A stretch of DNA of 64,000 nt from Buttiauxella agrestis (lineage in GTDB: Bacteria > Pseudomonadota > Gammaproteobacteria > Enterobacterales > Enterobacteriaceae): NCBI RefSeq assembly GCF_900446255.1, contig NZ_UIGI01000001.1, forward strand, positions 3,374,763-3,438,762, written 5' to 3'. Positions within the stretch are counted from its first letter, which is position 1, and each line of letters opens with the position of its first letter. The notes under the pieces were generated by a model. The model worked only from the letters and a program-made list of their open reading frames with translations, had not been told where the DNA came from and did not search any database. This document shows, piece by piece, positions 22,215 to 30,402 of the stretch. Position numbers and translations under genes: made by a program.

Positions 22215-22511
22215 TAAGTTTAAGTGTTAATTAACACATTAATAAACAACCATACTAATTCCGCATTAAAACATCGGCATTTCCTTGTATTCATCGCTTT
22301 AATCCGAAAATTAATCACTCTCGCAACAAAAATTGCATTTATTAATAAACCCGGAAAGGTGAGCAAGGGCACAAAAAAGATCTAAACCAATCCCATTAAA
22401 TTAAAAGTGTGACCTCGACACACCCTGGTTATCGGACAAATACAATAAGCTGTCATACAGCAATAGAAATCTCTCATCCTCACTTAATATTTTATGCAGG
22501 GAGCATTATTT
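22215..22511. promoter_or_regulatory. AT-rich control region of the TRAP operon
   Basis: About 300 AT-rich bases upstream of dctP with no supported gene. At 22407-22423 there is a small inverted repeat GTGTG-N7-CACAC that could be an operator (GntR-like or degenerate CRP-like). I cannot assign the regulator, and no dedicated regulatory gene adjoins the operon. Confidence 0.4.
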
Positions 22512-23498
22512 ATGAAATTTTTAACTCTACCTCGCCAATTACTCTGTGCCTCGCTAATGACTTTATGTGCCACTGGCGCAAATGCGGCAGATAAAATCAC
22601 CCTAAAACTGGCGCATAATCTGGAGCGCAGCCATGTTGTGCATCTGGCATTTGAAGAATTGGCCAAAGAGGTACAACAACTTTCAGACGGTAATATGCGT
22701 ATTCGCATTTACCCTAGCAGCCAAATGGGCAGCGCGCGCGAAACACTGGAGCTTTTGCAAAATGGTGCGCTGGATATGACGAAAGGTTCGGCCAGTGATT
22801 TGGAATCTTTTGACAATACTTACGCTATCTATAATTTGCCGTATTTATTTAAAGACCAGCAGCATTTTAATCGCGTGGTGTTTGGTGAAGTCGGCAAAGA
22901 AATTATGGAATCAACGAAAGATAAAGGGTTCTTTGGTATTTCCGCCTATGTTGCCGGCACCCGTAGTTTCTATGCTAAAAAACCGATTACCAAACCAGAA
23001 GATTTAAAAGGTCTTAAAATTCGTGTCCAGGCAAGCCCTACAACATTAAAAATGGTTGAATTAATGGGCGGCTCACCTACCCCTATTTCATTCGGTGAAG
23101 TGTATACCGCGATGCAACAAGGCGTGGTTGATGGTGCAGAAAATAACGTGCCGTCATGGGTTCAGACTCGTCATATCGAAATCGCTAAAGTTTTCTCGGA
23201 AGATGAACATACTTCCATTCCTGACTTCCTCGTTATCTCCACGAAAACCTGGCAGAAGCTATCACCTGAACAGCAGCAAATCCTGATGAAAGCGGCGAAA
23301 AACTCCGAAGCGTATCAACAAAAGCTTTGGGAGAAAGTCGATGCTGATTCACGTGCTCAGGCTAAAGCCATGGGCGCGACTATCCTCAGCGTAGATAAAG
23401 CCCCATTCCGCGCCGCAGTAAAACCGCTGTATGACGACTTCGCCAAAGATCCAAAACAAGCCGCACTGCTGGCTAAATTCGAAGCCGCTGCCGAGTGA
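22512..23498 (+). CDS. dctP: TRAP transporter substrate-binding protein (DctP family)
   Basis: Periplasmic receptor of a tripartite ATP-independent transporter, 328 aa with a signal peptide (residues 1-26, cleavage after ANA). The mature part begins ADKITLKLAHNLERSHVVH. The family arginine that pairs with a substrate carboxylate is in LKGLKIRVQASPTT, and the GGSPTPISFGEVYTAMQQGVVDGAENN motif is intact. Substrates of this subfamily are sugar acids, C4-dicarboxylates and related carboxylates; I cannot choose. The start is the ATG at 22512 with a GGGAG box; an ATG at 22494 lacks one. It leads dctQ and dctM, separated from them by a REP-like hairpin. Confidence 0.88.
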   Translation: MKFLTLPRQLLCASLMTLCATGANAADKITLKLAHNLERSHVVHLAFEELAKEVQQLSDGNMRIRIYPSSQMGSARETLELLQNGALDMTKGSASDLESFDNTYAIYNLPYLFKDQQHFNRVVFGEVGKEIMESTKDKGFFGISAYVAGTRSFYAKKPITKPEDLKGLKIRVQASPTTLKMVELMGGSPTPISFGEVYTAMQQGVVDGAENNVPSWVQTRHIEIAKVFSEDEHTSIPDFLVISTKTWQKLSPEQQQILMKAAKNSEAYQQKLWEKVDADSRAQAKAMGATILSVDKAPFRAAVKPLYDDFAKDPKQAALLAKFEAAAE

Positions 23499-23511
23499 TT
23501 TTAAGGTTTTG

Positions 23512-23538
23512 TTGGTCGGGTGACGCTTACCCGACCAG
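23512..23538. repeat. REP-like hairpin inside the TRAP operon
   Basis: TTGGTCGGGTGACGC and TTACCCGACCA form a near-perfect palindrome. It resembles the REP-type element at 40474 (GTCGGATAAGCG...GTCATCCGAC). It lies between dctP and dctQ, where it could protect the dctP message from 3' decay. Confidence 0.65.
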
Positions 23539-23579
23539 CTAAAACGCGTGTCATCAATATTATTTCCAGGTATGCAAAC

Positions 23580-24077
23580 ATGATACTTAAGCCCATAAAG
23601 CTTGCGGTAGACCGGACTATTGCCACTTTTTCTGTACTGGTGATGGTCGCTCTGGTTGTCTGCGTGGTGTGGCAGGTTTTCAGCCGCTACGTCCTCAACC
23701 AACCCAGTACTCTCACCGATGAACTGGCACGTTTTCTGATGATCTGGGTGGGTCTGCTGGGCGCATCTTATACCGTTGGCGCACAACGCCACCTTTCCAT
23801 CGATTTCCTCTCGATGATGCTGCCAGATAATAAAAAACCGCTGCTTAACATCGTGATTAACGCGCTGATATTACTGTTTTCATCCACGGTTATTGTCAAC
23901 GGCGGCCTGAAGCTGATTGAAAAAACATTAGCCACCTCGCAGCTCTCAGCGGCGTTACAAATCCCGATGGGTTATGTCTACATTGTGCTGCCATTAAGCG
24001 GGGCAATTATGATGTTTTACTCGCTCTATTTTATCCTGACCGACGCTCACACTCTGGTCAGCAAGGAAGGGAAATAA
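23580..24077 (+). CDS. dctQ: TRAP transporter small permease (DctQ family)
   Basis: Small membrane subunit of the TRAP transporter, 165 aa with four predicted transmembrane helices. Conserved family positions include the FSRYVLNQPSTLTDELARFLMIWVGLLGASY segment and the QIPMGYVYIVLPLSG segment near the C terminus. It forms a complex with DctM for sodium-driven carboxylate import. The start is the ATG at 23580 (MILKPIKLAVDRT), which has a CCAGG box; the upstream extension covers the REP hairpin. The TAA overlaps the dctM ATG. Confidence 0.85.
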   Translation: MILKPIKLAVDRTIATFSVLVMVALVVCVVWQVFSRYVLNQPSTLTDELARFLMIWVGLLGASYTVGAQRHLSIDFLSMMLPDNKKPLLNIVINALILLFSSTVIVNGGLKLIEKTLATSQLSAALQIPMGYVYIVLPLSGAIMMFYSLYFILTDAHTLVSKEGK

Positions 24078-25378
24078 TGGAAACTTATATCGCCCTCACC
24101 TTATTTGGTGCGTTCTTCGTTCTGGTGTTTATCGGGGTGCCTATTTCGTTTGCGATTGGGATTGCCACCGTTTCCTCTATGTTGCTGATGTTCCCATGGG
24201 ACGTGGCGGTTATCACTGTTTCGCAGCGTCTCGCCAATGGCCTGGATAACTTTGCGCTACTGGCGATCCCGTTCTTTATTTTTGCCGGAACACTGATGAA
24301 CAGCGGCGGAATAGCCATCCGCTTAATTAATCTTGCACAAATTATGGTTGGCCGTATTCCCGGTTCTCTTGGCCATGTCAACGTGCTGGCGAATATGATG
24401 TTTGGCTCCATCTCCGGTTCGGCTGTTGCCGCTGCCGCAGCCGTAGGGGGAACACTTTCCCCGATTCAAAACAAAGAAGGCTATGACCCGGCGTTTTCAA
24501 CGGCGGTCAACGTTTCATCGTGCATTACAGGGTTGCTGATTCCACCTTCTAACGTGCTGATTGTGTTCTCGCTGACGGCGGGTGGCGTATCGGTGGCATC
24601 GTTATTTATGGCCGGTTACTTGCCGGGCATCTTAATGGGCCTGTCAATCATGCTGGTGTGCTGGATTATCTCCCGGCGCCGCGGCTATCCGGTTTCCGCA
24701 CGTCCAACCTGCGCTCAAGCAGCAAAAGCGTTCCTCGACGCGTTGCCAAGCCTGTTACTGGTGATTATCGTCATGGGCGGGATTCTGGGCGGCGTATTCA
24801 CCGCAACGGAAGCCTCAGCCATCGCGGTGGTTTACACCTTCGTCCTTTCGGTGCTTATCTATCGCGAAGTGAAATGGCGTGATTTACCAAAGCTCATCCT
24901 TGATTCGGTGGTGACAACCTCGATTGTTCTGCTGCTCATTGGCTTCTCAGTTGGCATGTCCTGGGCCATGACCAACGCGGATATTCCCTACATGATTAGC
25001 GATGCGCTGATGGGTGTCTCGGATAACCCGCTGGTGATTCTGTTGCTTATCAACATCGTGCTGCTCATTGTCGGCATCTTTATGGATATGACGCCAGCGG
25101 TGCTTATCTTTACGCCAATCTTCCTGCCTATTGCGCAAGATTTGGGGATGGATCCGGTTCACTTCGGCATCATGATGGTCGCTAACTTGTGCGTCGGCTT
25201 GCTGACTCCTCCGGTTGGCAGCGCACTGTTTGTCGGCTGTTCCATCACGGGCGTTAAAATTCAGAATCTGATCAAACCGTTGCTGCCCTTCTATGCCGCG
25301 CTGTTTGTCTCACTGATGATGATTACCTACATTCCTGAGATTTCCCTGTTTATTCCTCGGCTGTTGGGACTGATGTAA
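24077..25378 (+). CDS. dctM: TRAP transporter large permease (DctM family)
   Basis: Large permease and transport channel of the TRAP system, 433 aa, about twelve transmembrane segments, ion transporter superfamily. Recognisable motifs are IGVPISFAIG, the GSISGSAVAAAAAVGGTLSP hairpin, IPPSNVLIVF and NLCVGLLTPPVGSALFV. It is translationally coupled to dctQ by an overlapping start. A terminator follows, so the next PTS operon is separate. Confidence 0.9.
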   Translation: METYIALTLFGAFFVLVFIGVPISFAIGIATVSSMLLMFPWDVAVITVSQRLANGLDNFALLAIPFFIFAGTLMNSGGIAIRLINLAQIMVGRIPGSLGHVNVLANMMFGSISGSAVAAAAAVGGTLSPIQNKEGYDPAFSTAVNVSSCITGLLIPPSNVLIVFSLTAGGVSVASLFMAGYLPGILMGLSIMLVCWIISRRRGYPVSARPTCAQAAKAFLDALPSLLLVIIVMGGILGGVFTATEASAIAVVYTFVLSVLIYREVKWRDLPKLILDSVVTTSIVLLLIGFSVGMSWAMTNADIPYMISDALMGVSDNPLVILLLINIVLLIVGIFMDMTPAVLIFTPIFLPIAQDLGMDPVHFGIMMVANLCVGLLTPPVGSALFVGCSITGVKIQNLIKPLLPFYAALFVSLMMITYIPEISLFIPRLLGLM

Positions 25379-25391
25379 TTCCTGCCTTCTG

Positions 25392-25416
25392 AAAGCGACT
25401 TTCGGGTCGCTTTTTA
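25392..25416 (+). terminator. Terminator after the TRAP operon
   Basis: AAAGCGAC and GTCGCTTT arms with a short loop, then TTTTTA. Confidence 0.85.
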
Positions 25417-25463: not shown

Positions 25464-25506
25464 TGTGAATTAACTCACTTTATTCGCCGCTAACAATGTC
25501 TACTGT
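25464..25506 (+). promoter_or_regulatory. CRP site and -10 of the PTS/asparaginase operon
   Basis: TGTGA-ATTAAC-TCACT (25464-25479) matches nine of ten bases of the CRP core TGTGA-N6-TCACA. A TACTGT hexamer at 25501-25506 is placed so that the site would be centred about 41 bases before the start of transcription, the class II position. This predicts catabolite-sensitive expression. Confidence 0.65.
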
Positions 25507-25553: not shown

Positions 25554-26861
25554 ATGAAAAACCTGATGGCCGCAATAGAAGCAAAGCTGATGCCCCTTGC
25601 CGGAAGAATGGCGCAACAACGCCACCTCGGGGCCATTCGCGATGCGTATATCTCGTTTATGCCTTTTATTATTGTCGGTTCAATTCTGCTGGTTATCTCC
25701 TCTTTCCCAAGCACTGCCTATCAACAGTTTATGGCGTCGATTTTTGGTGAAGGTTGGTCTGCAACTATCGAAATCCCGTTTAATGCCATCTTCTCGACCA
25801 TGGCGGTGTTCATTAGTTTCCTGGTCGCTTATCGTCTTGCAGAGCGTTATGACATCGACAAAATGTCCGCCGGGATTTTGTCTCTCTCCTGCTTCCTGAT
25901 TCTCACCCCCTTCGCTAAAACCCAGGAAATTGGCAACCTTATTCCGATGGAGTGGTTGGGTTCAAAGGGGTTGTTTGTCGCGATGCTCGGTGCGATTGCC
26001 AGCACTGAATTATTTGCCTGGATGCTAAGCCGCAACTGGGTGATCCGTATGCCGGATGGCGTGCCACCTGCGGTACAAAAATCCTTCGCGGCTTTGATTC
26101 CATCACTGCTGATTCTGGTGATTGCGCTCGCGATTCGCGTGCTGTTCGCCCGCACGGATTACCACACTATTCACCAGTTTGTTTACGAAGTGCTGGCTAC
26201 GCCAATTCGCCACTTCGGGACTTCCTATGTTGGCGCGTTGTTTACGTGCTTTAGCATTACCAGCCTGTGGTCGGTCGGGATTAACTCAGGCTCGATGGTC
26301 AACGGCATCCTGCGTCCATTCTGGATGGAAAACCAAATGGAGAACCTGACCGCAACACAGGCAGGATTGCTGCCTCCGCATGTTGTCACCGAACAGTTCT
26401 ACGACATGATTTGGATGGGCGGCGCGGGAGCCACCTTGTCTCTGGTGATTGCTATGCTGCTGTTTGCCCGCAGCCAGCATATTAAGAACGTTTCGCGTCT
26501 GGCTGCAGGTTCTTCCATCTTCAACATTAACGAGCCGGTGCTGTTTGGCCTGCCGGTCATCATGAACCCAATAATGCTTATCCCATTCAACCTGGTCCCG
26601 CTGGTGCTGGTGACGGTGCAATACATCACCATGTCGATAGGTTGGGTCGCCACCACCACTGGGGTCTATATCCCGTGGACGCTGCCGCCAGTATTAAGCG
26701 GGTTTATCGTTACCGGGCATCTCAGCGGCGCTGTAATTCAGCTTATCAATCTGTTGATTGGCGCCATCATCTACCTGCCGTTCCTTAAAGTCGTGGACAA
26801 GCAATACCGGGCGAATGAAACCCCGGAAATTTCAGCCACCACTAAACCCGCCACGGAGTAA
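25554..26861 (+). CDS. PTS EIIC, lactose/cellobiose/diacetylchitobiose family
   Basis: Membrane permease component of a sugar phosphotransferase system, 435 aa. It has eight to ten transmembrane helices and the family hallmark IFNINEPVLFGLPVIMNPIMLIPF, plus GGAGATLSLVIAM. It takes up and phosphorylates a sugar as it enters the cell, receiving phosphate from an EIIB of the Lac/Chb type. That EIIB lies at the far end of this operon. The start is the ATG at 25554 behind CGGAGCGG; an in-frame TTG at 25521 overlaps the operator. The next gene starts 8 bases after its stop. Cargo is not known; see the operon-level interpretation under the asparaginase. Confidence 0.88.
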   Translation: MKNLMAAIEAKLMPLAGRMAQQRHLGAIRDAYISFMPFIIVGSILLVISSFPSTAYQQFMASIFGEGWSATIEIPFNAIFSTMAVFISFLVAYRLAERYDIDKMSAGILSLSCFLILTPFAKTQEIGNLIPMEWLGSKGLFVAMLGAIASTELFAWMLSRNWVIRMPDGVPPAVQKSFAALIPSLLILVIALAIRVLFARTDYHTIHQFVYEVLATPIRHFGTSYVGALFTCFSITSLWSVGINSGSMVNGILRPFWMENQMENLTATQAGLLPPHVVTEQFYDMIWMGGAGATLSLVIAMLLFARSQHIKNVSRLAAGSSIFNINEPVLFGLPVIMNPIMLIPFNLVPLVLVTVQYITMSIGWVATTTGVYIPWTLPPVLSGFIVTGHLSGAVIQLINLLIGAIIYLPFLKVVDKQYRANETPEISATTKPATE

Positions 26862-26869
26862 GTAAAAAC

Positions 26870-27838
26870 ATGACGTTATCGAAAAACTGGGGCGTGATAG
26901 CGACCTGGCGTATGGCCTGGGAAGGGGTCAGTGAAGCCGCGCAGTTATTGCAAAGGAACAACGACGCCAGTGGTGCTGCGGTTCGCGCAGTCACCTGTGT
27001 AGAAGATTATCCATTTTATAAATCAGTTGGTTACGGCGGCTTGCCTAACGAACAAGGTGTGGTTGAACTGGACGCTGCGTTTATGGACGGTTCAACGCTC
27101 GCCATAGGCGCGGTTGCCAGTATTCGCGATATCGCTAACCCGATTCTGGTGGCGCAAGCCTTAAGCCGCGAGCGCTTCAACAGTTTTATGGTCGGCGAAG
27201 GCGCACAAACCTGGGCGCTCGCGCAAGGTTTTGAGCGCAAAAACATGCTGACCGATCGCGCCCATCAGCATTATCTCAAGCGTAAACGTGAAACGTTGGA
27301 TCGCGGCCTTAGCCCGTACACCGGGCACGATACCGTTGGCGTGATCACCCTCGATCAGAATCAACAGATGTGCGTCGCCACCTCCACCAGCGGCTTGTTT
27401 ATGAAGCGCCCTGGGCGCGTGGGCGACTCGCCGGTATCGGGTTCCGGTTTTTATGCCGACAGCCAGATTGGTGCCGCCACCGCCACCGGCCTTGGCGAAG
27501 ACTTGATGAAAGGATGCATCAGCTACGAAATCGTCAGCCGCATGGGGCGCGGAATGTCACCACAACAGGCGGCTGAATCAGCGGTTTACGACCTCGAAAG
27601 CCAATTGATTGCCCGCTATGGTCGCGCCGGTGATTTGTCGGTGGTGTGTATGAATAACCGCGGTGAATACGGTGCAGCCACGACCATTGATAACTTCTCG
27701 TTTTCAGTCGCCACGGCAGCGCAAACGCCAGCGGTATTTTTGACCACCCGCGAAGGAAAACACACCCTGATTCGCCCGGCAGACCAGGCGTGGCTTGATG
27801 CCTATATCGAACGTATTACCGCCGAGGTGATCGTATGA
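26870..27838 (+). CDS. Glycosylasparaginase-type Ntn hydrolase (family T2)
   Basis: Predicted N4-(beta-N-acetylglucosaminyl)-L-asparaginase-like enzyme, 322 aa. It is an Ntn hydrolase that cuts itself to expose a catalytic threonine. The predicted cleavage is D154/T155 in GHDTVGVI, identical in pattern to the HDT site of human and flavobacterial aspartylglucosaminidase. The asparagine-binding Arg183 and Asp186 (in GRVGDSP) and the oxyanion-region ATGLGED are conserved, and the alpha chain has VGYGGLPNEQGVVELDAAFMDG. These favour glycosylasparaginase over the IaaA isoaspartyl type. There is no signal peptide, so it acts in the cytoplasm, unlike the exported flavobacterial enzyme. Placed between PTS genes, it would release aspartate from an imported phosphorylated glycosyl-asparagine. 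This substrate is inferred. The stop overlaps the next start (ATGA). Confidence 0.88.
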   Translation: MTLSKNWGVIATWRMAWEGVSEAAQLLQRNNDASGAAVRAVTCVEDYPFYKSVGYGGLPNEQGVVELDAAFMDGSTLAIGAVASIRDIANPILVAQALSRERFNSFMVGEGAQTWALAQGFERKNMLTDRAHQHYLKRKRETLDRGLSPYTGHDTVGVITLDQNQQMCVATSTSGLFMKRPGRVGDSPVSGSGFYADSQIGAATATGLGEDLMKGCISYEIVSRMGRGMSPQQAAESAVYDLESQLIARYGRAGDLSVVCMNNRGEYGAATTIDNFSFSVATAAQTPAVFLTTREGKHTLIRPADQAWLDAYIERITAEVIV

Positions 27839-29304
27839 AATGCCAGTTAACCACCCTTACGCAATGCCCGGCAGATGCGCATTTAATACTGTGGAAAGCT
27901 CACGCCAACGCGTGGCCGCAAACACTGCGCCCGCTGCTGGATGAAATGGCGCTTTCCAGTGAATCGCAAACCACCACTTTCGGTTTAAGCAGCAAATGCC
28001 TGCAACTAACCCTTTTATCTTCGGCCGACATTGAGCGTCCTGAAGCGTTGCGCCAGTTAACAGAATATCTGAATAGCGTTTTGCCAGGCCCGCTTTCACA
28101 CCCTGTCGCCGTCGATATCTCAGGTTTTGACCTGGCAAACCGTGTCGTTTTTGCACGCCTGCGCACCCTCCTGGTGGCAGTGATGAACCGTTTCTATCAG
28201 TTGCCGCAGTTGGGATATCGCGCCCAGCAAGCGCAAAGTCACGGGCAACTGCTATTGCTGGTGGCAGAACACAATCCGCAATCGTCAGACCTGGCTGCGC
28301 AAGCGCAGGCAGTGGCTCAAGGGATGCTGCTTTCGCGCAAACTGGCCGACACTCCAGCAAATGACTGCCGCCCGCATGATGTGGCCCAACAAGCTGAAAG
28401 CTGGGCGCGCGAGCATCCGCAAACGCACTGTGAAATCCTTGATGAAAACGCCATTCGCGAGCAGGGTTTAGGTTGTCTTGATGCCACAGGAAAAGGCAGC
28501 GACAACCCGCCCCGGCTGGTGACGCTACGCTGGCAAGGTGGCGCTGAAAACGCACCGTATTACGCGTTTGTCGGCAAAGGCATTACCTTCGATACCGGCG
28601 GGATGTGGCTGAAAGAAGGCGAAGGAATGCGCACCATGAAATACGATATGTGTGGTGCTGCCGTGGTGTTCGGGCTGATGGAAATCGTCAAAACGCTGCA
28701 ACTTCCGCTTAATGTTGTCGCTGTGATGGCGCTGGCCGAAAACATGCCTGGCGTTAACGCCATGCTGCCGGGTGATGTCGTGAAATCGCACGCCGGTCAT
28801 AGCGTCGAAATTATAAATACCGATGCCGAAGGTCGCCTGGTTTTGGCGGATGCGCTGAGTTACGCCGCCACGCGCTTTAATCCGGCAGCGTTAATTGATG
28901 TCGCCACCCTGACCGGAGCGGTAGTCAAAGCCCTGGGGTATGACATCTCCGGGTTGATGAGTAATGATTCCCCCCTTAGCCGCCAATTGCAGCAGGCAGC
29001 CGATTTAACCCAGGACCGAATCTGGCCGCTGCCGCTCGACGAAAGCTTTGATTCGCAAGTCAAAAGCCATATTGCCGACCTCACGAATACACCGCCCAAT
29101 AACGCGGCCATCGCGGTATCCGCCGCCCAATTCTTGAGTAAGTTTTGCCACCAGTCGCCGTGGGCGCATTTAGATGTGAGCGGCACCGCGTTGAGCCGGG
29201 GTAAATTCACCCAGGCCAGCGGCCGCCCTGCTCTGTTACTGACGCAATTCTTACTCGACATCTGCAAAGGAAAGACAAATGAAAAAGATTCTACTGGTAT
29301 GTGA
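27835..29304 (+). CDS. M17 family leucyl aminopeptidase
   Basis: Dizinc (or dimanganese) aminopeptidase of the PepA family, 489 aa, cytoplasmic and expected to be hexameric. Metal and catalytic residues are visible: Lys248 and Asp253 in GKGITFDTGG, Asp271-region in MKYDMCGAA, and the signature N328-T-D-A-E-G-R-L335. It removes N-terminal residues from peptides. The N-terminal domain is divergent from PepA and PepB, so this is a paralogue with its own role. It overlaps the upstream asparaginase by 4 bases and the downstream EIIB by 26 bases, which indicates tight translational coupling. The operon context suggests trimming of imported peptides or glycopeptides. Confidence 0.88.
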   Translation: MKCQLTTLTQCPADAHLILWKAHANAWPQTLRPLLDEMALSSESQTTTFGLSSKCLQLTLLSSADIERPEALRQLTEYLNSVLPGPLSHPVAVDISGFDLANRVVFARLRTLLVAVMNRFYQLPQLGYRAQQAQSHGQLLLLVAEHNPQSSDLAAQAQAVAQGMLLSRKLADTPANDCRPHDVAQQAESWAREHPQTHCEILDENAIREQGLGCLDATGKGSDNPPRLVTLRWQGGAENAPYYAFVGKGITFDTGGMWLKEGEGMRTMKYDMCGAAVVFGLMEIVKTLQLPLNVVAVMALAENMPGVNAMLPGDVVKSHAGHSVEIINTDAEGRLVLADALSYAATRFNPAALIDVATLTGAVVKALGYDISGLMSNDSPLSRQLQQAADLTQDRIWPLPLDESFDSQVKSHIADLTNTPPNNAAIAVSAAQFLSKFCHQSPWAHLDVSGTALSRGKFTQASGRPALLLTQFLLDICKGKTNEKDSTGM

Positions 29305-29584
29305 TTTAGGCATGTCGACCAGTCTGGTCGTCAAACGTATGCAGGAAGCGGCGGTGAAACGCCAGCTTGAAGTCGAGATTCAGGCGAAAGGAATGAGCGA
29401 TTTTAAAAACGCGATTACTGCTTTTGACTGCGCACTGCTTGGCCCGCAAATCGCCTATAAGCTCGCAGACTGCAAACAGATTGCCGCGCCGCTTAATAAG
29501 CGTGTTGAAACCATAAATATGATGGATTACGGCATGGTAAACGGAGAGAAGATCCTCGACCACGCGTTGAGCCTGATCGACTAA
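29279..29584 (+). CDS. PTS EIIB, lactose/cellobiose family
   Basis: Cytoplasmic phosphoryl carrier of a Lac/Chb-type PTS, 101 aa. The phosphocysteine is Cys8 in KKILLVCDLGMSTSLVV; the usual sequence after Cys is S/A-A-G, here D-L-G. The P-loop GMSTS that holds the phosphate is intact. It hands phosphate to the EIIC encoded at 25554. No EIIA of this family is present in the window, so EIIA must come from elsewhere (for example a chb-type locus). It ends the operon and overlaps the convergent regulator's stop by 4 bases. Confidence 0.85.
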   Translation: MKKILLVCDLGMSTSLVVKRMQEAAVKRQLEVEIQAKGMSDFKNAITAFDCALLGPQIAYKLADCKQIAAPLNKRVETINMMDYGMVNGEKILDHALSLID

Positions 29585-30402
29585 ATATTCTTGAGCCACG
29601 CAGCCGGGGTCAGATTCTTGAGTCGGCTGCGGATAATTCGCTTGTTCAGCAATTCTTCAAACTCCAGCAAAACCGCGCCAAAACCCAGGCGCTTATCGTA
29701 ACGCTCACCGTTAAGTAACTGTTCCAGCGTTTGCGTCCACTCACCCTCTGCGGCTCTTTCCTGCCAGGCTTCTGGCTCGGCTTCATGCAAGGGAACCCCA
29801 AGTTGTTGCGCCAGTTGTTGAGTCAGCGTGGTAGAACAGGCCGTTAATGACCGCACTTTCAATAGCAAACCCTGCTGCAAAAAACCGACCAGAGCATCAA
29901 GCGATTGCTGTTCACCCCGCTCGCGAAGCGCCACGGCCAAAAAACCTGAAACCGGACAGCTAAATGCCAGCAACGAGCCGTGTTTATGGCTAATGCTTTC
30001 AGGAAGCGAAAACACATCAAGGCGCAAATGTCCGACCGGCTGCTTTAAATCAGGTTTAGCGAGCCGGGATTGCTGCCAGTTTTGCAATGTTCTGCTGACA
30101 CTGGCGCGCGAAATACCCTGCTGGACCAGCAATTGCGCGGCTTCCACAAGCTCATCCAGGGAAAGTGACAAACGCACGCGCAGAAAGACCAGCATCGCCT
30201 CCTGCTCATGGCTCAACGCACGATGAATGGTATTAGGCCGATGAGATTTGTCATAACAGTCATCTCGCTTACGCCAGCGCCTGACGGTATCCACAGAAAT
30301 ATTCAACTCCTCCGCCAGTTCACCGTCGGTTTTGTCAGAGCTTTGAATATATTTGCGGGTTCGCGGCGTGGTGGTGGCGTTGGAGTGCAGCTTGATCTCC
30401 AT
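29581..30402 (-). CDS. Domesticated IS481-type transposase-like HTH protein, putative regulator
   Basis: 273 aa. The N-terminal 110 residues align in pattern with IS481-family transposases: LHSNATTTPRTRKYIQSS opening, HTH with DGELAEELNISVDTVRRWRKR (about residues 26-46), DKSHRPNTIHRALSHEQE, then LSLDELVEAAQ...ISRASVSRTLQ. The rest follows the RNase H-like integrase domain, but the catalytic triad is broken. Asp129 (RLDVFSLP) remains; the position of the second Asp (family LTDNG) reads LTACS (Ala188); and the C-terminal Glu motif is not recognisable. The protein is shorter than active members and no terminal inverted repeats flank it. It is probably exapted as a DNA-binding regulator of the operon it faces; this is inference from layout. 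A TATAAT lies upstream. Confidence 0.72.
   Translation of the reverse strand: MEIKLHSNATTTPRTRKYIQSSDKTDGELAEELNISVDTVRRWRKRDDCYDKSHRPNTIHRALSHEQEAMLVFLRVRLSLSLDELVEAAQLLVQQGISRASVSRTLQNWQQSRLAKPDLKQPVGHLRLDVFSLPESISHKHGSLLAFSCPVSGFLAVALRERGEQQSLDALVGFLQQGLLLKVRSLTACSTTLTQQLAQQLGVPLHEAEPEAWQERAAEGEWTQTLEQLLNGERYDKRLGFGAVLLEFEELLNKRIIRSRLKNLTPAAWLKNI

Follow-up and report, generated by a model that had tools for sequence, protein, structure and literature searches.

A PTS-linked glycosylasparaginase-type operon of Buttiauxella agrestis with a predicted role in the use of glycosyl-asparagine

What does Buttiauxella agrestis import through a sugar phosphotransferase system (PTS) whose genes are interleaved with those of a hydrolase and a peptidase? 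The question is raised by an operon at positions 25554–29584 of the 64,000-nucleotide stretch analysed here (the window; assembly GCF_900446255.1, contig NZ_UIGI01000001.1, positions 3,374,763 to 3,438,762 of the forward strand). A first-pass annotation of this DNA had described four abutting or overlapping genes, and both the open reading frame (ORF) coordinates and the family matches agree with that description. The operon probably serves the recovery of N-glycoprotein remnants, namely the uptake and cleavage of N-acetylglucosaminyl-asparagine (GlcNAc-Asn) or of a very short glycopeptide. Its genes are:

25554..26861, + strand: PTS Lac/Chb-family EIIC, 435 amino acids (Pfam, NCBIfam, alignment)
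26870..27838, + strand: glycosylasparaginase-type N-terminal nucleophile (Ntn) hydrolase (AGA), 322 amino acids (T155 nucleophile, R183, D186, W13)
27835..29304, + strand: M17 leucyl-aminopeptidase-type peptidase, 489 amino acids (motifs GKGITFDTGG, DMCGAA, NTDAEGR)
29279..29584, + strand: PTS Lac/Chb-family EIIB, 101 amino acids (Cys in CDLGMSTS)

The EIIC gene starts at the ATG at 25554, which has GGAG right upstream; the start at TTG 25521 given in the ORF list is mechanical. EIIC and AGA are separated by 8 bp, AGA and M17 overlap by 4 bp and M17 and EIIB by 26 bp, and the Pfam scores of the four proteins are 189.8 (PTS_EIIC), 209 (Asparaginase_2), 371 (Peptidase_M17) and 66 bits (PTS_IIB). 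In the pathway proposed here, EIIC would import GlcNAc-asparagine or a very short glycopeptide and EIIB, supplied by an EIIA encoded elsewhere, would phosphorylate the sugar at C6. The M17 peptidase would remove N-terminal residues, exposing on the asparagine the alpha-amino group that must be free for glycosylasparaginases to act, and the Thr155 Ntn hydrolase would split the amide, releasing aspartate and 1-amino-GlcNAc(-6-P); the latter would lose ammonia to give GlcNAc-6-P for NagA/NagB. An adjoining transposase-like helix-turn-helix (HTH) protein would regulate the operon, with CRP control probable.

The hydrolase is central to this proposal. In a comparison with sequences of known structures, residues 9–281 of AGA matched the glycosylasparaginase of Flavobacterium with 183 bits. 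The HDT site (153–155) and the Arg183/Asp186 pair reported by the first-pass annotation are present and identical in all 84 AGAs aligned, as are T12, W13, S52, D68, T206, G207 and G209; position 173 is Thr in 82 sequences and Ser in two. R183 and D186 align with the Arg/Asp pair of the Flavobacterium enzyme, which we take to be the anchor of the substrate's alpha groups. The two enzymes (the Flavobacterium one being PDB 1p4k) share the HDT nucleophile, the Arg/Asp pair and the TW motif, and differ in that the Buttiauxella AGA has TWRM for TWNF and is linked to a PTS. This comparison groups AGA with the glycosylasparaginases (EC 3.5.1.26), and cleavage of GlcNAc-Asn is predicted. The enzyme had also been said to lack a signal peptide, and none was evident on inspection by eye, no predictor having been run.

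Conservation of the gene order was examined in several samples, in which L and G numbers denote loci and genomes. Among 198 genomes of the family, an AGA match of any kind was present in 96 and a close one (64–100% identity) in 18, and all 18 close loci have the order EIIC-AGA-M17 with gaps of at most 36 bp and no gene between, one EIIC (G135) being broken by a stop. NagA is encoded in all 18 of these cassette genomes. The window AGA is 100% identical to that of B. agrestis ATCC 33320; the nearest genome searched, G001, shares only 31% of the window's sampled words. A class-level search of 369 genomes at E 1e-45 matched AGA only in G001 itself. A scan of named genomes gave 389 AGA relatives at E 1e-3, and counts were made on the best 80 (64 pseudomonadotal, 16 Bacillota), a set that holds many close Enterobacter and Klebsiella species, some cut contigs and copies from one strain (L110, L111, L112, L117). 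Among these best 80 of 389, EIIC lies immediately 5' of AGA in 63 and M17 immediately 3' in 57. Within 6 kb of AGA, the 64 pseudomonadotal loci hold EIIC in 64, M17 in 60, an HTH gene in 62, EIIB in 16, EIIA in 12 and CutC in two; the 16 Bacillota loci hold EIIC in seven, EIIB in eight, EIIA in 13, an M20 peptidase in 12 and CutC in 13.

The transporter carries a signature of its own. EIIC is nearest to Bacillus cereus ChbC, in which His250 and Glu334 hydrogen-bond the substrate, according to the accessible text of PMC8193941. At the place of His250 (N244 in the window) all 78 cassette EIICs have Asn, and all 16 other Lac-family EIICs examined (seven mutual orthologues) have His; the Glu334 equivalent (window E327) is kept in 78 of 78. 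The His-to-Asn change is offered as a sequence signature of the cassette EIIC class. A CxxGMSTS loop is present in 26 of 28 cassette EIIBs, and the other two begin at a contig or locus edge. From the grouping of AGA, the conserved linkage, the EIIB Cys and EIIC Glu, the ubiquity of NagA in cassette genomes and the CRP-type sites described below, we infer a glyco-asparagine function, and to that extent the function proposed by the first-pass annotation is supported.

Several observations weigh against this pathway. The window operon has no EIIA, and 48 of the 64 pseudomonadotal loci have neither EIIB nor EIIA nearby; of the EIIC-hydrolase-M17-EIIB order envisaged at first pass the three-gene core stands and the fourth member is often missing. 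EIIC is only 36–38% identical to its Enterococcus and Latilactobacillus partners. Four pseudomonadotal loci, all from Vibrionaceae, have no M17 nearby, and a Bacillota AGA locus (L264) has a dipeptidase and no PTS gene nearby. Only seven of the 16 Bacillota loci have EIIC within 6 kb of AGA; when five genomes of the EIIC-less loci were searched whole, three proved to have an EIIC of 52% identity that bears the same signature at a greater distance (L130, 7 kb from AGA; L125, about 12 kb), and the genomes of L099 and L109 gave no EIIC of the cassette class. Finally, as described in the accessible part of PMC6960285, a Lactobacillus casei pepV mutant grows like the wild type, the peptidase PepV being dispensable for use of 6'FN-Asn.

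The missing EIIB and EIIA genes favour an alternative with the same substrate, in which EIIC, at least in the EIIB-less versions, acts as a facilitator: GlcNAc-Asn would enter unphosphorylated, AGA would free GlcNAc and a kinase would phosphorylate it. EIIB is degraded in Cedecea colo (L057) and was not found in loci L058–L062 and L054, the substrate residue of ChbC is changed in every cassette EIIC, and L. casei relies for its alf-2 system on an MFS permease and the kinase SugK (PMC6960285, in the part available). Set against this are the Glu334 equivalent, kept throughout, the Cys of the window EIIB and the loop conserved in nearly all cassette EIIBs, and the finding that an EIIB-EIIA pair is encoded elsewhere in every EIIB-less genome checked. 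On balance we regard a facilitator as unlikely, though it is the strongest competitor of PTS-coupled uptake.

That free-standing pair deserves description. The cassette lacks EIIB in 14 of the 18 genomes (in G075 the contig ends behind M17, and a search of the genome gave no closer EIIB). All 14, and the two Buttiauxella genomes whose cassette has EIIB only, encode an EIIB-EIIA pair at another site, and in none of these 16 loci does an EIIC lie within 6.5 kb; the pair is absent from the two genomes whose cassette holds both EIIB and EIIA. In all 16 loci the pair is followed by a gene with the size of rpoC or by a cut one, and in 15 it is preceded by a gene of thiH size, thiH and rpoC having been identified by search in L215 only and judged by gene size in the others; in L214 an RHS gene precedes the pair and a Dcu transporter lies before rpoC. 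Among these loci (L213–L228), a GGDEF gene was also seen just upstream in L223 and, by size, in some others. At a minimum of 85% identity the pair's EIIB occurs in 41 of the 198 genomes, namely 16 of 18 with a cassette and 25 of 180 without (Fisher p 8e-11, uncorrected for kinship). Since it is found in cassette genomes without EIIB, the free EIIB-EIIA pair may feed the EIIB-less EIIC, although it is not exclusive to cassette genomes.

A second alternative keeps both the PTS and AGA and assigns them to another glycosyl-asparagine such as glucosyl-Asn or a disaccharide-Asn. The features tested do not pin down the sugar, disaccharides are the usual cargo of Lac/Chb EIICs, and in Endozoicomonas (L067, 7109–8509) a glycosyl hydrolase family 1 gene stands right after AGA. 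We consider this improbable, as no extra gene lies between EIIC, AGA and M17 in any of the 18 loci and the L. casei enzyme AsnA2, to which AGA is likened by description only, acts on GlcNAc-Asn (PMC6960285, in part). The weakest alternative, that the hydrolase is an isoaspartyl peptidase or asparaginase and the PTS serves an unrelated sugar, can cite the single Pfam family of both subfamilies and AGA's sole NCBIfam match, beta-aspartyl-peptidase (117 bits against a cut-off of 567), but is very improbable given that the best match of this type scores 116 bits and starts from residue 23, 67 bits below the glycosylasparaginase, that T12-W13 is invariant, that AGA is linked to EIIC in two phyla and that 16 of the 18 genomes with a close AGA hold a second match of 33–40% identity, presumably the isoaspartyl-peptidase type.

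PTS-coupled use of GlcNAc-Asn remains the preferred account, and the neighbourhood of AGA in Bacillota adds a lead on its last step. Of the 16 Bacillota loci 13 have CutC no farther than 6 kb from AGA, against two of the 64 pseudomonadotal ones, and CutC is encoded in all 18 cassette genomes of the family sample. In a sample of 398 Bacillota genomes, nine had an AGA match, close in eight; one of them, G567, is the genome of L087 and is counted in both sets. CutC was present in 39 genomes, comprising all eight with a close AGA and 31 of the other 390, the genome with a distant AGA having none (Fisher p 4e-9, or 3.5e-8 with all nine, uncorrected for kinship). It lies 1–5.4 kb from AGA in six of the eight and elsewhere in two. 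Three of the other seven loci read EIIA-AGA-EIIC-CutC-EIIB, one EIIA-AGA-CutC-EIIB and one EIIA-AGA-EIIC-EIIB, CutC and nagA following 5 kb further along; one reads EIIB-EIIC-GrdB-like-M20-AGA-EIIA without CutC, and one has AGA and M20 with no PTS gene. CutC-family genes were seen in or beside the Bacillota AGA clusters of L087, L122, L130, L262, L263, L265, L267 and others.

Control loci were taken from 20 of the 31 Bacillota genomes that have CutC but no AGA, mostly from the top of the list, and five of the stretches are shorter than planned (omitted were G683, G604, G646, G967, G596, G793, G733, G679, G783, G586 and G758). None of the 20 had EIIC, EIIB, EIIA, M20 or AGA near CutC, and the idea that CutC is a general PTS neighbour was rejected. 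The nagA gene adjoins CutC or is one gene off in six of the 20, with a C69 dipeptidase between in three, and is absent from the other 14; a ROK sugar kinase stands beside nagA in both control loci checked. An M81 peptidase and a fucosidase also adjoin some CutC genes, with no clear message. Given its position near AGA or near nagA and a dipeptidase, CutC tends to be associated with GlcNAc and peptide catabolism. This widespread 'copper homeostasis' family takes its name from a phenotype now ascribed to a small RNA: according to the accessible text of PMC6538781, MicL accounts entirely for the copper sensitivity seen in cutC mutants. A concrete hypothesis can be offered in its place, namely that CutC is an enzyme for the glycosylamine left by glycosylasparaginase (1-amino-GlcNAc or its 6-phosphate), for which Enterobacteria including Buttiauxella would use their chromosomal cutC. 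We hold this to be possible though doubtful, and a different GlcNAc metabolite as its target would be equally compatible; the CutC link is nevertheless the most valuable lead of the analysis.

Other genes were seen around the Bacillota AGAs. A putative oxidoreductase related to GrdB occurs in seven of the 16 loci (NF041545 in L087), with examples at L087 8373–8897, L122 8403–8921 and L051 10695–11219. At L130 12386–17965, 2.4 kb after the AGA of Clostridium cadaveris, a large beta-N-acetylglucosaminidase-like protein (375 bits, cut-off 1000) has an LPXTG anchor. A 645-amino-acid protein of L064 has no Pfam match; neither it nor the GrdB-like and GGDEF neighbours gave a clear hint.

Control of the operon was considered next to three features of its flanks:

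29581..30402, − strand: probable cognate regulator, 273 amino acids, HTH and RNase H-like domain (neighbour of the operon in relatives)
25464..25478, + strand: CRP-type site TGTGA-N6-TCAC, about 90 bp 5' of the EIIC start codon (pattern match)
25391..25414, + strand: terminator-like hairpin between the TRAP genes and the EIIC operon (10 pairs, T tail)

The region reaching from 350 bp upstream to 60 bp downstream of the called EIIC start contains the CRP-type pattern in 50 of 70 loci, where shuffled sequences predict 0.11. The 57 Enterobacterales loci, many of which are near relatives, account for every one of the 50; the 13 loci outside Enterobacterales lack the pattern. Such sites before EIIC point to carbon catabolism, and the operon is probably under CRP control.

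The convergent gene at 29581–30402 shares 4 bp with the EIIB end, and all 18 family loci have an HTH gene next to the operon. The HTH of the protein is N-terminal. Against the IS481 transposase model, each of 21 regulator homologues reaches an E-value of 1e-3 or lower (best 2.2e-21), the window protein scoring 47.5 bits, far under the NCBIfam cut-off of 224. Its AlphaFold model (mean pLDDT 87.3) finds the IS21 transposase IstA as best Foldseek match (E 9.4e-8), followed by retroviral integrases, with query TM-scores of only 0.33–0.40, which indicates a likeness of domains. When the catalytic positions are located by eye, six of the 21 proteins have D at the presumed first one, and no Asp is conserved at the second, where one member has TDN; a profile built from the 21 and compared with five IS481-family transposase loci gave a best E of 0.0036, not convincing alone. 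An IS481 transposase was rejected on the score under the cut-off and the unconserved catalytic acidic triad. From sequence and model, the protein is likely a transposase-derived putative regulator of the operon.

Upstream of the hairpin and the operon lie dctPQM TRAP genes (22494–25378). They were rejected as part of the system on account of the hairpin, itself a consensus match only (14 such sites in the region against 12.1 expected), and of their absence from G166 (L032) and from six of six Cedecea-clade loci (L057–L062). Against this rejection, TRAP dctPQM stands before EIIC in five of five named Buttiauxella loci (L052–L056), so a link within Buttiauxella is possible.

The cassette occupies different chromosomal sites: beside ybiJ in Buttiauxella and Cedecea-type loci (four of 18), beside sdaA in L045, elsewhere in L048, and next to arsC-like, bepA and hda/uraA genes in L042, 11 others having neighbours of the same sizes. 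In E. coli, megablast with the operon gave no match, and in a distant search with AGA and M17 none of 5,426 genomes covered 80% of the query, the matches listed all being pepA. A quick tree was built from 57 of the 84 AGAs, the remaining 27 being omitted as near-copies; in it, 12 rows form a clade (support 100) of the window, Buttiauxella, Cedecea and three sequences titled Enterobacter or Enterobacteriaceae; it joins Vibrionales and Oceanospirillales (82, not starred), apart from the other 22 Enterobacterales rows (100). This placing suggests separate acquisitions, the deep tree being unsure with long branches.

If the proposed function is true, PTS-based scavenging of glycosyl-asparagine would extend from Enterococcus and lactobacilli to Clostridia and to many Gram-negative genera, across Enterobacterales, Vibrionaceae, Endozoicomonas and Histophilus, and would become accessible to study in a harmless species. 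Beside the EIIC signature and the hypothesis for CutC, the analysis would offer EIIB-less EIIC operons accompanied by a free-standing EIIB-EIIA pair, and a transposase-like protein as possible regulator.

Four known systems invite comparison. The E. coli chb (N,N'-diacetylchitobiose) PTS shares the Lac/Chb-family EIIC and EIIB; the window operon differs in having no EIIA, ChbF, ChbG or ChbR and an Asn for the ChbC-type His. L. casei alf-2 likewise links an intracellular glycosylasparaginase, AsnA2, to a peptidase, PepV, and AsnA2 splits GlcNAc-Asn into aspartate and a 1-amino-GlcNAc that decays; there, by contrast, the permease, a fucosidase and SugK replace the PTS, and transport needs the fucose (PMC6960285, as far as accessible). 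The asnA2 clusters of L. sakei (LSA1689, LSA1690 and LSA1693 in the available text of PMC3146418) and L. curvatus also combine asnA2 with EIIC and an M20 peptidase, and differ by a GntR regulator and a GrdB-like gene. On an L. curvatus (Latilactobacillus) plasmid (L051) the cluster holds AGA (55% identity), GntR, the GrdB-like gene, EIIC and a dipeptidase, EIIB not being annotated in that stretch.

The closest relative is enterococcal. The title of Combret et al. 2024 reportedly links the ega (enterococcal glycosylasparaginase) locus to the use of GlcNAc-Asn. In E. faecalis this locus comprises EgaG, EIIB, EIIC, a dipeptidase and a GntR regulator (PMC11160706, accessible text, citing Combret 2024), and the first-pass claim that no PTS pathway of this layout had been described was therefore wrong. 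Searches of the open-licence PMC literature gave no description of an enterobacterial version among the papers listed. E. faecalis ega was compared by description only, and the loci of E. raffinosus and E. gilvus, of the same make-up, served for sequence: their row is GntR, Sapep dipeptidase, AGA (57 and 56% identity to the window), EIIB, EIIC and EIIA, the E. raffinosus EIIC being 38% identical. These Enterococcus AGAs and that of Latilactobacillus, 55–57% identical to the window AGA, are annotated as N(4)-(beta-N-acetylglucosaminyl)-L-asparaginase. Both systems join a glycosylasparaginase to Lac/cellobiose-family EIIB and EIIC and to a peptidase; the gene order differs, and where ega has a dipeptidase and GntR, the Buttiauxella operon has M17 and a transposase-like regulator, neither M20 nor GntR occurring within 6 kb of AGA in any of the 64 pseudomonadotal loci. 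The CRP-type sites, the many loci without EIIB and EIIA and the Asn in place of ChbC His250 also count among the differences. Judged by its genes, the Buttiauxella operon is a predicted Gram-negative variant of the enterococcal ega system.

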